Of a DNA stretch of 64,000 bases, positions 12,817 through 21,500 are shown one piece after another; the stretch's first letter is position 1, and every line of letters begins with the position of its first letter. The position numbers and the translations under genes were made by a program. This DNA is from Oscillospiraceae bacterium (lineage in GTDB: Bacteria; Bacillota; Clostridia; Oscillospirales; Ruminococcaceae): positions 1-64,000 of the forward strand of contig JAJQGJ010000012.1 in the NCBI GenBank assembly GCA_021200565.1. The letters run 5' to 3'. The notes under the pieces are model-generated. The model did no database searches and was not told the origin of the DNA. It was given only the letters and a program-made list of their open reading frames with translations.

Positions 12817-13350
12817 TTAATTTTTTGTGCATGAAGTTACAACACTCGTAGATTTTACATTCCATGTTGCGTTAGTCTTCCATGACGGATCATACGAATA
12901 CATGAATGCAGTCCTGGCTTTGACAATCCAGCTTGAACTACGGCAATACGAGAAAACAGTGTCAACACTATACGGAGTAACCGTAATTATGTATGTTGCA
13001 TTTTTCTGTAGCGTCATAGAAAATGTTTTTGAATATCTCCATGAGTCATAGCCCGTACTAGTAGCACCGTTATCCTTAATGCATATGTATGAAACGGTAT
13101 ATGCACCGTATGTGCTGACAGTACTAGTACAATAGGCATTGTTTGTGTACTTTATCGTACCCTTTGACTGCGTGAAAGTTATCTTGCCGTTGCTTTTCCA
13201 CGAACTTCCTGTTACAACGGTAAACGTAGTTTTACTTGCACTACTGCCGGAAACGTTCACGCACACATTTTTTGCAAACACCGACGATGTCATCGTGACA
13301 CACAGCACGACTACCAAAAGTAACGAAACAAGCCTTTTGAGTTTTTTCAT
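12817..13350 (-). CDS. secreted protein of unknown function, 177 aa
   Basis: A signal peptide is clear: MKKLKRL, a hydrophobic stretch to about residue 22, and a likely cleavage after SSVFA. The mature part is small, rich in Ser, Thr and aromatic residues, and has several cysteines (NVCVNV, NAYCTST, SYICIKD, FSYCRSS, VTSCTKN) that could form disulfides. Its regular strand-like pattern suggests a beta-sandwich, but I recognise no family. AGGAGG lies 7 nt before the ATG. The gene follows a structured leader RNA with a terminator (13392-13492) that also occurs upstream of the surface-protein gene at 20725-21291, so both are probably controlled by the same signal. Confidence 0.75.
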   Translation of the reverse strand: MKKLKRLVSLLLVVVLCVTMTSSVFAKNVCVNVSGSSASKTTFTVVTGSSWKSNGKITFTQSKGTIKYTNNAYCTSTVSTYGAYTVSYICIKDNGATSTGYDSWRYSKTFSMTLQKNATYIITVTPYSVDTVFSYCRSSSWIVKARTAFMYSYDPSWKTNATWNVKSTSVVTSCTKN

Positions 13351-13391
13351 GATATTTCCTCCTAAAATTTATTTGTACGGAGGAAGACAAT

Positions 13392-13492
13392 AAAAAATCC
13401 CCCATACACTATTCTGTGTCGGAGGTTAATGGGTAAGTTCAGTTACCCCCCGCTGGATTTTTCACCCAGTTAAGACAACCGCTCAAATCGTC
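13392..13492 (-). promoter_or_regulatory. structured leader RNA, copy A (riboswitch-like)
   Basis: In RNA order: hairpin P1 (GACGA/UUGUC, 13474-13492), P2 (CUGG/CCAG with loop starting GUGAAAAA, 13453-13469), the run CGGGGGGU, P3 (GGGUAA/UUACCC, 13431-13448), then a terminator stem CCUCCGACAC/GUGUAUGGGGG ending in UUUUUU. ACCUCCG of the terminator can instead pair with CGGGGGGU, giving an antiterminator. Copy B at 21347-21458 keeps the same order with compensatory changes in P1 and P2. It matches no riboswitch class I can recall. The 357-base gap 13351-13707 otherwise holds only promoters. Confidence 0.7.
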
Positions 13493-13506: not shown

Positions 13507-13535
13507 ATTATAACACTACATTTCCACATTGTCAA
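13507..13535 (-). promoter_or_regulatory. promoter of leader RNA A and secreted-protein gene
   Basis: TTGACA, 17 nt, TATAAT; the predicted start is about 8 nt before hairpin P1. Confidence 0.8.
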
Positions 13536-14329: not shown

Positions 14330-15178
14330 TTATTCATAGATTCCACCCTTAACATTCATCATATAAAGCCTTGCCCCATCTTCCTCTTTGGTGTTATAAT
14401 CAAGCCCTAGGTCCTGGGCGACAATACGTGCAAGGTCGGAGAAGAGCTTGCAGGTGTTGATTGTGCTTGTCCAGATTCTTGCTGGGTCGGCGGTGGTGTA
14501 GGTTTTCAGGTACTTCCCATAGATGCTATCGGGGAGGTAATTTTTAAAATACTTCCCCATTTTGCCGGTTGAAACGGAGAAGTCGGAGATGGTGCCGATG
14601 TACCAGCTGACTATATTGTTGAGCTGTGGGCGAAGAGTCTCCTCAAACATCGACTTGGCATATGGAATCTCTCCCCTTCTTAAGCCTTTTGCAACGTTCC
14701 CTAGGCACCACCAGAATTCGTTGCAGCATGCAGAGAACTCAGCCTGAGTGGGTCTGTGAACCATATAGCACTCGTTGTCGAGGTTGTCGGAAAGGTGCCC
14801 TTCCCTGTCGAAAAGAACCTTCATCGGTTCATTGCCCCAGTCGGGCATAGTCGTTGTGAAGGTGAGGTCGATGCGCACTCCATCCTCAAAAATAGTGAGA
14901 TATGTGAAGTGCTCGGTGTTCCCAAAAGACAAATCGGGATTGTCGTTGATGTCGGGCAGCTGCATGATGAGGGCTTTGCCGAAGGTCTTCTCAATGTAAC
15001 AGGGATTATTGAAGTATGGCTCGAGGTCGCTAACAAGAAATGCGACATCGTAGTCCTGGTAGACGTCTTTGGGTCTTGAAATATCCGCCCTCGAACCACT
15101 CAGGACAGCTGCACGGACATTTTCATCCTTCTCCGCCGTGTCGGTAATGAGCCTTAACATTTCCTCAGTTGTACGCAT
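14330..15178 (-). CDS. aminoglycoside 6-adenylyltransferase-like nucleotidyltransferase
   Basis: The 282-residue protein matches the AadE/ANT(6) family (PF04439): MRTTEEMLRLITDTAEKDENV, the nucleotidyltransferase site GSRADISRPKDVYQDYDVAFLV, RIDLTF with the third acidic residue, and NEFWWCLGNVAKGLRRGE in the helical domain. ANT(6) enzymes adenylylate streptomycin; chromosomal relatives in gut Clostridia are common and often of untested activity. ATG 15178 is chosen because AGGAGGG lies 7 nt upstream. It has its own promoter and no mobile element beside it. Confidence 0.85.
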   Translation of the reverse strand: MRTTEEMLRLITDTAEKDENVRAAVLSGSRADISRPKDVYQDYDVAFLVSDLEPYFNNPCYIEKTFGKALIMQLPDINDNPDLSFGNTEHFTYLTIFEDGVRIDLTFTTTMPDWGNEPMKVLFDREGHLSDNLDNECYMVHRPTQAEFSACCNEFWWCLGNVAKGLRRGEIPYAKSMFEETLRPQLNNIVSWYIGTISDFSVSTGKMGKYFKNYLPDSIYGKYLKTYTTADPARIWTSTINTCKLFSDLARIVAQDLGLDYNTKEEDGARLYMMNVKGGIYE

Positions 15179-15208
15179 AATTAGCCCTCCTTGTGCTTTG
15201 TTAAAATA

Positions 15209-15237
15209 ATTATAGCACAAAGAGGGAGGAATTTCAA
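15209..15237 (-). promoter_or_regulatory. promoter of ANT(6)-like gene
   Basis: TTGAAA, 17 nt, TATAAT on the minus strand. Confidence 0.65.
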
Positions 15238-15272
15238 TGCGTAATGCAAAATAAGTCATATGGTTCAGCAAC

Positions 15273-20029: not shown

Positions 20030-20743
20030 TTATCTTCTCTTGGAAGAAACAACTGCGAAGCCTGCGATTGCCATCGGAACGAGGGCAAGAGCTACACCGG
20101 TGGTCGGGTTGGTCTCTTCAGCAGCAGGAGTCTCATCCTCAACAGTGAGGTCCTCGCCATCTTCCTCAGTCTCGGTCTCGCCTTCCTCAGCGGGTTCGTC
20201 AACACCTACATCCTCGCTGACTATTGTTCCAGCAGGAACATAGACAGATACGTTTGTGATGGTGTAGGAACCGGAGGTGTTGGAGATGAGTACATAAGAA
20301 TCGAGGTCAGCCATTCCAGCAGCTTCAAGAGCAGCATAGACTGTTGCGCCGTCATAGATAGCAGTGGTTCCGTCATCGGAAGTGAATGCTACCAAGCCTT
20401 CCTCATCCTCAGTGGTGGTACCAACTGTAGCGAGGTCAACATGGTTGCTGTCGTCCTTACCGATCATGAACTTCTCATAAGCCTCACCAGAGACATAGGA
20501 GATAGTGCTCTCAGAATCTCTTGTGATAACGAGCATTGCGCCCTCGGTGCTCAAAGCAGTAGCGAACGAAGAATCACCAAGCGAAACCTTATTCCAGTTG
20601 CCAGCAGCAGCGTTTACATCACTCGAGAAAGCAGCGTCATACTCAACGCCATCAATAGTAGCAGTACCAGCCTCTTCATCAGTGCCGATATACATCTTGC
20701 AAACTGTGCAGTAACCGTTAGAGTTTACAGTGTGCGGTACCAA
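20030..20743 (-). pseudogene. C-terminal part of a frameshifted NPxTG surface protein
   Basis: This frame opens with HTVNSNGYCTVCKMYIG, a Cys pair common in secreted Bacillota proteins, continues with an acidic Thr/Glu-rich stretch (about 175-210) and ends with the sorting signal NPTTG, a hydrophobic helix and SKRR. It has no signal peptide and no ribosome-binding site, and its first codons overlap the end of the upstream frame, which has a signal peptide but no anchor. The two together form one wall-anchored protein of about 420 residues interrupted by a frameshift near 20725-20745. The sorting signal is nearly the same as in the protein at 36464-37246. Confidence 0.7.
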
Positions 20744-21291
20744 GCGAGGTAGGTTCTTGAACCCAGCTCAACATCAGTCCTGGTGATGAGAACTCCGTGG
20801 TAATCTTCGTTGACGTAAATGACACCGTTGGTGCGGGAGGTGGATTCGCCGGAAGCCTGAGCAGTATAAACTCGAATTTCGGTAACATCCAAAGTACTGC
20901 CACCCTGAATCCAAAGACCACGTACATTCGTGAAATTGCTAACTGCTGCCAAGAATTCAGCAGATGTAATGGTTATAGTTACGCTTGTACCGCCACTAAC
21001 AGATGTGGTAGTTGCGTTACAAGAAGATGACCAGCTATAATCTGTATAGCTAATTCCAACTTGAATCCAGTCATAATCGACGGCGTCAGAACTTGCATCA
21101 ATCTCAATATAGCCACCATTCTGTGCTGCTTCACAAAGCTCAGTAACGTAGCTCGTCAAATATGTGCCCTGGTTCTGATATGAAATAGTCTGACTTGCAA
21201 CGAGATCATACTCCGTCGCAAATACACCTATCGGCAACAGTGACACAACCATCAGTACGCTGATTACAACGCACAAAAGTTTTTTTGCCAT
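20725..21291 (-). pseudogene. N-terminal part of the frameshifted surface protein
   Basis: The frame begins MAKKLLCVVISVLMVVSLLP with a clear signal peptide (cleavage after GVFA). The mature part is Ser/Thr-rich with a beta-sandwich-like pattern (YIEIDASSDAVDYDWIQVGI, RGLWIQGGSTLDVTEIRVYT), like a discoidin or carbohydrate-binding domain. It ends at ELGSRTYLAWYRTL and the partner frame takes over. ATG 21291 is chosen because AGGAGG lies 9 nt upstream. It is downstream of leader RNA copy B. If the frameshift is real, the protein is secreted but not anchored. Confidence 0.7.
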
Positions 21292-21346
21292 AAAAAATTT
21301 CCTCCTCAAAATGTCTTTTAGACCGTCTTAGGAGGAATAAATATAG

Positions 21347-21458
21347 AAAAGCCCTCCAAAGCACGTGTCGTGTTCGGAGGTTTGAAATTGGGCACCCAAA
21401 AACCAGTACCCCCCGCCGAGTTCTCACCCGGTTAGAAACGCAGAATTATTTACGCTTC
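21347..21458 (-). promoter_or_regulatory. structured leader RNA, copy B (riboswitch-like)
   Basis: Same order as copy A: P1 (GAAGCG/CGUUUC, 21435-21458), P2 (CCGG/UCGG with loop GUGAGAAC, 21416-21431), the run CGGGGGGU (21408-21415), P3 (GGGUAC/GUGCCC, 21390-21411) and a terminator CCUCCGAACACG/CGUGCUUUGGAGG followed by GCUUUUC. P1 and P2 stems differ from copy A but stay paired, while the loop GUGARAA and the G-run are kept. The 440-base gap 21292-21731 holds this leader, a family A repeat and the fba promoter. Confidence 0.7.
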
Positions 21459-21471
21459 TAAATACGTTTAT

Positions 21472-21500
21472 ATAGTAGCATTTTTTGACCCGAATTGCAA
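21472..21500 (-). promoter_or_regulatory. promoter of leader RNA B
   Basis: TTGCAA, 17 nt, TACTAT; predicted start a few bases before hairpin P1, as in copy A. Confidence 0.6.

Follow-up and report, generated by a model that had tools for sequence, protein, structure and literature searches.

The leader RNA described here belongs to a large and real RNA family, which looks clade-restricted and amplified and is absent from Rfam 15, irrespective of how its switching is read. Covariation and predicted folding support the leader as an attenuator with a mutually exclusive terminator and antiterminator. Since the length of a G-run in the leader varies, G/C runs are rare nearby, and predicted folding depends on run length, a slippage-tuned (phase-variable) attenuator, in which the G repeat itself would be the antiterminator, is preferred to a ligand riboswitch; we give this proposal about an even chance of being correct.

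Leader copies in the source window

The window, i.e., the whole stretch of DNA that was analysed, comprises 64,000 nt of an Oscillospiraceae bacterium (GCA_021200565.1, contig JAJQGJ010000012.1, positions 1 to 64,000). The first-pass annotation had described a structured leader in two copies, A and B. Re-reading of the sequence places both on the minus strand at the positions claimed, with the following parts.

Copy A:
13507..13535, minus strand, promoter with −35 TTGACA (13530-13535), 17 nt and −10 TATAAT (13507-13512), from the sequence
13474..13492, minus strand, P1 hairpin, from folding
13453..13469, minus strand, P2 hairpin with the subtype-specific loop GUGAAAAA, from folding and alignment
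13444..13452, minus strand, antiterminator strand CGGGGGGUA with a six-G run at 13446-13451
13431..13448, minus strand, P3, whose foot GGGU:ACCC takes the 3′ half of the G-run, from folding
13399..13426, minus strand, ACCUCCG (13420-13426) and the stem of intrinsic terminator 1 (13399-13425), from folding
13389-13398, minus strand, U-tract of terminator 1
13357..13384, minus strand, second hairpin UCCUCC...GGAGGA, burying the Shine-Dalgarno sequence
12817..13350, minus strand, gene 3′ of the leader encoding 177 aa, with a heuristically predicted signal peptide and no Pfam family

Copy B:
21469..21500, minus strand, promoter-like region (TTGCAA; TACTATATA), a weaker match than that of copy A
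21434..21459, minus strand, P1, from folding
21416..21431, minus strand, P2, from folding and alignment
21407..21415, minus strand, CGGGGGGUA with six Gs
21390..21411, minus strand, P3, from folding
21353..21381, minus strand, ACCUCCG (21375-21381) and the stem of terminator 1 (21353-21380), from folding
21300..21336, minus strand, second hairpin, burying the Shine-Dalgarno sequence
20725..21291, minus strand, gene 3′ of the leader with its ATG at 21291, encoding 188 aa, with a heuristically predicted signal peptide and no Pfam family

The folds are borne out as well, with z-scores of −2.8 (copy A) and −4.3 (copy B) against dinucleotide shuffles, and the core pattern has two matches in the window and none in 100 shuffles. 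The secreted protein claimed downstream of each copy agrees with the signal peptides predicted for both products. P1 was stated to begin a few nucleotides after the predicted transcription start; in copy A the TTGACA-17-TATAAT promoter ends 14 nt upstream of P1, and copy B has a weaker promoter match. Near copy A, window positions 14330-15271 encode a member of the streptomycin adenylyltransferase family (PF04439).

Size and distribution of the family

Clear relatives emerged when 31 genomes of the genus were searched by pattern; the first covariance model was built from 9 sequences and the second from 63 aligned matches. Covariance-model searching returned 120 matches at E ≤ 0.01, spread over 12 of the 31 genomes. 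The single match in G247 was discarded as a family member because it is without a G-run (L033), leaving 11 genomes with true copies (G000 and G251-G260) at 3–20 per genome. The source genome holds 12 copies at E ≤ 0.01, or 13 including one weaker match. The set examined comprises 119 copies (the 120 matches minus that of G247 and the identical element G259:C21, plus G000:C13:67285 at E 0.016), which reduce to 115 distinct sequences, 114 with a G-run anchor and 106 in the P3 count. A looser search with the first model (E ≤ 0.1) gave single weak matches in G148, G247, G263, and G265 (L033-L036), which were judged spurious on reading.

No convincing copy was found outside the genus in samples of 148 family and 295 order genomes, searched with stricter filters by which weak copies could be lost; the sole other match in these samples, in G120, is without a G-run (L117) and was rejected. 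A strict pattern, applied to 247 family genomes, matched only in the source genome and in L003, which bears no resemblance to the leader. A scan of an 84,980-species genome collection, with a pattern that fits one subtype, yielded 14 stretches; each lies in a MAG record that bears the title Oscillospiraceae bacterium, Ruminococcus sp. or Clostridiales bacterium. Two matches in viruses were judged to be chance on reading. The family therefore looks both restricted to one clade, a group of Ruminococcus-related bacteria, and amplified within it.

Anatomy of the leader

The common layout consists of a promoter, the 5′ hairpin P1, the G-run (YGGGGGGUA), P3, ACCUCCR and, usually, a second U-tailed hairpin. 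ACCUCCR doubles as the 5′ arm of an intrinsic terminator, and the foot of P3 takes the last Gs of the run. A TTGACA/TATAAT-like promoter is present in 51 of the 63 matches read, with the 5′ hairpin between it and the G-run and with 26 to 56 nt separating the G-run from the predicted start; the remaining 12 belong to the copy B type, and for these the script picked an implausible promoter site further upstream. A few copies fetched later have no TTGACA/TATAAT-like promoter by eye.

Across the 114 anchored copies the UGYGGGGGGUA core is conserved, whereas P1 and P2 are not. G occupies position −2 in 99 copies and C or U position −1 in 113, the run itself measures 5–9 nt, and it is followed by U in 111 and then by A in 110. 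The foot of P3 pairs the last Gs with CCC, its upper stem is very variable, and the spacer from CCC to CCUCC is 7 to 10 nt in 98 of 106 copies. P3 is expanded to a long hairpin or several hairpins in L030, L039, L052, L074, L076 and similar copies, reaching up to 74 nt from the G-run to the end of CCC, with the foot and the spacing to CCUCC nearly constant. The loop GUGARAA, noted as conserved between copies A and B in the first-pass annotation, is not conserved outside the A/B subtype: no more than 8 of 114 copies have it before the G-run, and thus no family-wide aptamer was found. Elsewhere the loop reads UUU or AGAU, or P2 is not clearly recognisable.

Each segment is more stable than its shuffles, with mean z-scores over 114 copies of −2.3 for P1, −4.1 for P3, and −3.5 for the terminator. 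Among nine sequences, two-sided pair changes occur at 2 of 5 pairs in P2, 3 of 9 in P3, and 0 of 12 in the terminator; both sides changed in 12 cells against 4.7 in shuffles, though a partner slid by +1 also gives six such pairs (7 cells). The 3′ arm of the terminator was not detected by the script in 7 of 114 copies. In 21 of the 107 copies in which it was found, the next nine bases include at most four T, so that the first hairpin may possibly be no terminator in these 21. L159 and L170 carry ACCCCG in place of ACCUCCG, and the terminator's 3′ arm is altered to match.

Pairing of the G-run with ACCUCC

The alternative pairing of ACCUCCG with the G-run, put forward in the first-pass annotation as an on/off switch, can be followed through two positions, one directly 5′ of the run and the other directly 3′ of CCUCC. 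Among the 114 anchored copies, these are C-G in 64, U-A in 29, U-G in 19, C-A in 1, and A-G in 1. The lone C-A row comes from the misanchoring of one copy (L151), in which the base is really G, and no C-A remains after correction. The resulting Y:R covariation is significant (Fisher p = 1.5e-14, 113 C/U rows) and upholds the proposed pairing in the further homologues that had been named as its test. When the tree is taken into account, joint changes at both sites are seen in 3-6 of 8 independent pairs and opposite changes in none (sign-test median p 0.125), a result that is weak taken alone, though one-sided.

The antiterminator pairing rivals the terminator for ACCUCC and, in part, P3 for the Gs. 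In predicted folds of the leader before ACCUCC is made, the P3 foot is present in 111 of 114 copies; once the transcript extends eight bases past ACCUCC, the antiterminator is present in 75 of 114. Once the terminator is complete, the antiterminator is a predicted equilibrium minority (0.03 at six Gs and 0.18 at eight), and any switch would therefore have to be kinetic, operating during transcription. The two mutually exclusive helices are thus supported by Y:R covariation on the one side and by the stability of P3 and the terminator on the other, with termination itself being predicted.

Variation in the length of the G-run

The number of Gs differs in 10 of 18 non-redundant leader pairs, each at least 86% identical and drawn from genomes of different species, and is kept in the other 8; the run is thus variable at otherwise conserved loci. 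In the same leaders, T/A runs of five or more differ in only 9 of 47 cases (p = 0.006 versus G-runs), these control runs being mostly shorter than the G-runs. Among the ten pairs that are at least 93% identical, the G-run differs in 4 of 10, versus 2 of 32 T/A runs. A single G is the sole difference between L162 and L086 in 221 aligned columns, and copy B has six Gs versus seven in its 97% identical relative L023 (G260). G runs may slip faster than T/A runs regardless.

Long G/C runs are otherwise scarce. The 64-kb window contains two of six or more, both of them element G-runs, and 233 kb of partly overlapping downstream flanks contain only three. Run lengths among the 114 copies are predominantly six (42 copies) and seven (56 copies), with eight in 11. 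The predicted formation of the antiterminator before the terminator is made rises across this range, being 0.38, 0.44, 0.69, and 0.90 for five, six, seven, and eight Gs, respectively.

These data bear on the weakest alternative, a fixed-set attenuator in which the RNA switch works and length variation is neutral slippage without a regulatory role: six- or seven-G runs are prone to slip and the antiterminator is a predicted minority at every G length once the terminator is made, but runs of six or more are kept in 111 of 114 copies although they are almost absent nearby, and predicted pre-terminator folding changes most across the natural lengths, which makes this reading very improbable.

Second hairpin and downstream genes

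Most copies precede genes for predicted secreted proteins. A simple heuristic applied to the 119 downstream positions predicts a signal peptide in 88 and none in 24, with no ORF found in 7. Ten secreted products were scanned, of which four have Pfam matches of surface type (BspA-type LRR, Cna_B, SpaA, and InlB-type B-repeat) and six have none.

In the 79 copies with an assignable start, the Shine-Dalgarno sequence tends to be part of another hairpin, on its 3′ side, with a U-rich tract behind it. Its mean pairing is 0.80, compared with 0.61 in 31 control genes of the window (p = 6.5e-5), and the nine bases preceding the start include at least five T in 65 of 79 copies versus 5 of 31 controls. 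This second hairpin and the variable G length are both absent from the first-pass description. A five-segment domino, in which the antiterminator would free the 3′ arm of the terminator and this arm would open the Shine-Dalgarno hairpin, was considered and rejected: forcing the antiterminator leaves the Shine-Dalgarno sequence buried in most copies, opens it by more than 0.3 in only 12 of 79, and leads to re-pairing of the arm in 24 of 79. Among the copies listed, the positive ones mostly have short terminators, and the domino is therefore not claimed for copy A or B. Some copies (L063, L067, L072, L081, L147, L159, L160, and similar ones) have a plain second terminator in place of this hairpin, and the ORFs that follow, 95 to 466 nt downstream, include Wzz, C39 ABC exporter, PP2C, FHA, YbjN, Sel1, and dynamin-like proteins.

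Proposed mechanism and alternatives

In the proposed slippage-tuned attenuator, transcription would start just before P1 and proceed through the G-run, whereupon P3 would form on the three or four Gs at its 3′ end. As soon as ACCUCCR has been transcribed, it could be paired by the 5′ Gs together with the base that precedes the run, which would keep it from terminator 1; without this antiterminator, terminator 1 would form and the gene would be off. Read-through RNA would, in most copies, meet the second U-tailed hairpin, which is predicted to hide the Shine-Dalgarno sequence. The number of Gs would set the competitive strength of the antiterminator, and since the tract changes length readily, each gene could be reset heritably and independently of the others. 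High-rate slippage within populations, an effect of length on expression, and the direction of switching are inferred. A broader extension is advanced more tentatively, namely that the leaders, as many as about 20 in a genome and each set on its own, constitute an RNA-only contingency system, in which the hypermutable G-run would be the antiterminator and no leader peptide, recombinase, ligand or protein would be required. This candidate system is found in one clade only, whose element-bearing genomes are without GGDEF c-di-GMP enzymes.

The strongest competitor is a ligand riboswitch of a new class, in which a pocket would be built from P1, the unpaired UGYGG and the A conserved behind GGGU, joined in some copies by P2, and the ligand would shift the balance between P3 and the antiterminator. 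The near-invariant core, which exceeds the needs of pairing and remains compatible with such a pocket, the stable 5′ segment before the G-run, and the competing helices are all consistent with it. However, the riboswitch label of the first-pass annotation is not supported: the sequences and loops of P1 and P2 vary, P2 is often missing or not apparent, no aptamer sequence is shared, the G-run ranges from 5 to 9, and the products are varied secreted proteins of no single pathway. The first-pass annotation could match the element to no familiar riboswitch class, and no Rfam 15 family reaches its gathering score; a scan of the window returned three tRNAs only, 20 diverse loci gave no match, and permissive scans of five copies, including A and B, gave only weak matches below gathering score. 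Control by c-di-GMP is disfavoured, since GGDEF and RF01051 are each found in 0 of 11 element-bearing genomes. GGDEF is present in 18 of 20 other genomes of the genus, an anti-correlation that may represent one ancestral clade-level event. Taken together, a ligand riboswitch appears unlikely.

A trans-acting factor, whether a protein bound to P1 or to the G-run or a small C-rich RNA that captures the run, could coordinate all copies, and their number per genome with a common core and layout is regulon-like. Against this, LoaP-type antitermination was rejected: each of the 11 element-bearing genomes has one NusG-domain match, and therefore no extra NusG-type (LoaP-like) paralogue. The ANTAR target motif consists of two hexaloop hairpins with A1 and G4 before a terminator. 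Two AxxGxx hexaloop hairpins occur in 0 of 114 copies, and one in 10, despite an ANTAR protein in each of the 11 genomes; ANTAR control is likewise disfavoured, and coordination in trans is judged slightly less probable than ligand control.

Comparison with known systems

Poly-G and poly-C contingency loci are familiar from Neisseria, Campylobacter, and Bordetella, in which the tracts act in reading frames or promoters. The leaders described here share with them a variable G/C homopolymer at surface-protein genes, whereas here the tract would be a pairing strand of RNA. In Clostridioides difficile, the leader of the surface-protein gene cwpV contains a terminator that is phase-variable through DNA inversion by a recombinase. 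A leader terminator at a surface-protein gene is common to both systems; unlike in cwpV, the variable element here is homopolymer length.

In the literature searched, no description of this element was found, nor any homopolymer or poly-G antiterminator of this kind. Guanidine-IV and other transcription-terminating riboswitches likewise possess leaders with a mutually exclusive terminator and antiterminator, in a clostridial species (PMC11611296). Unlike that class, the present family has no Rfam match, no conserved family-wide aptamer, and a variable number of Gs. The closest description in the literature searched is the pil1 leader of Streptococcus gallolyticus, in which changes in a GCAGA repeat alter the reading frame of a leader peptide and the terminator is opened by ribosomes (PMC3894217). 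As in the pil1 (and pil3) pilus attenuator, where the effect is heritable, repeat number in a leader would act on a premature intrinsic terminator before surface-protein genes. Unlike pil1, as described there, the G-run itself would pair as the antiterminator, there are 3–20 copies per genome, and no leader peptide was noticed in an unsystematic reading.

The family is supported by covariance and offers one parameter that can be tested as a dial, namely the number of Gs. If the proposal is true, slippage would give this Oscillospiraceae-type clade diversity in its secreted and surface proteins, and it would do so within the helices of regulatory RNA instead of within promoters or reading frames.
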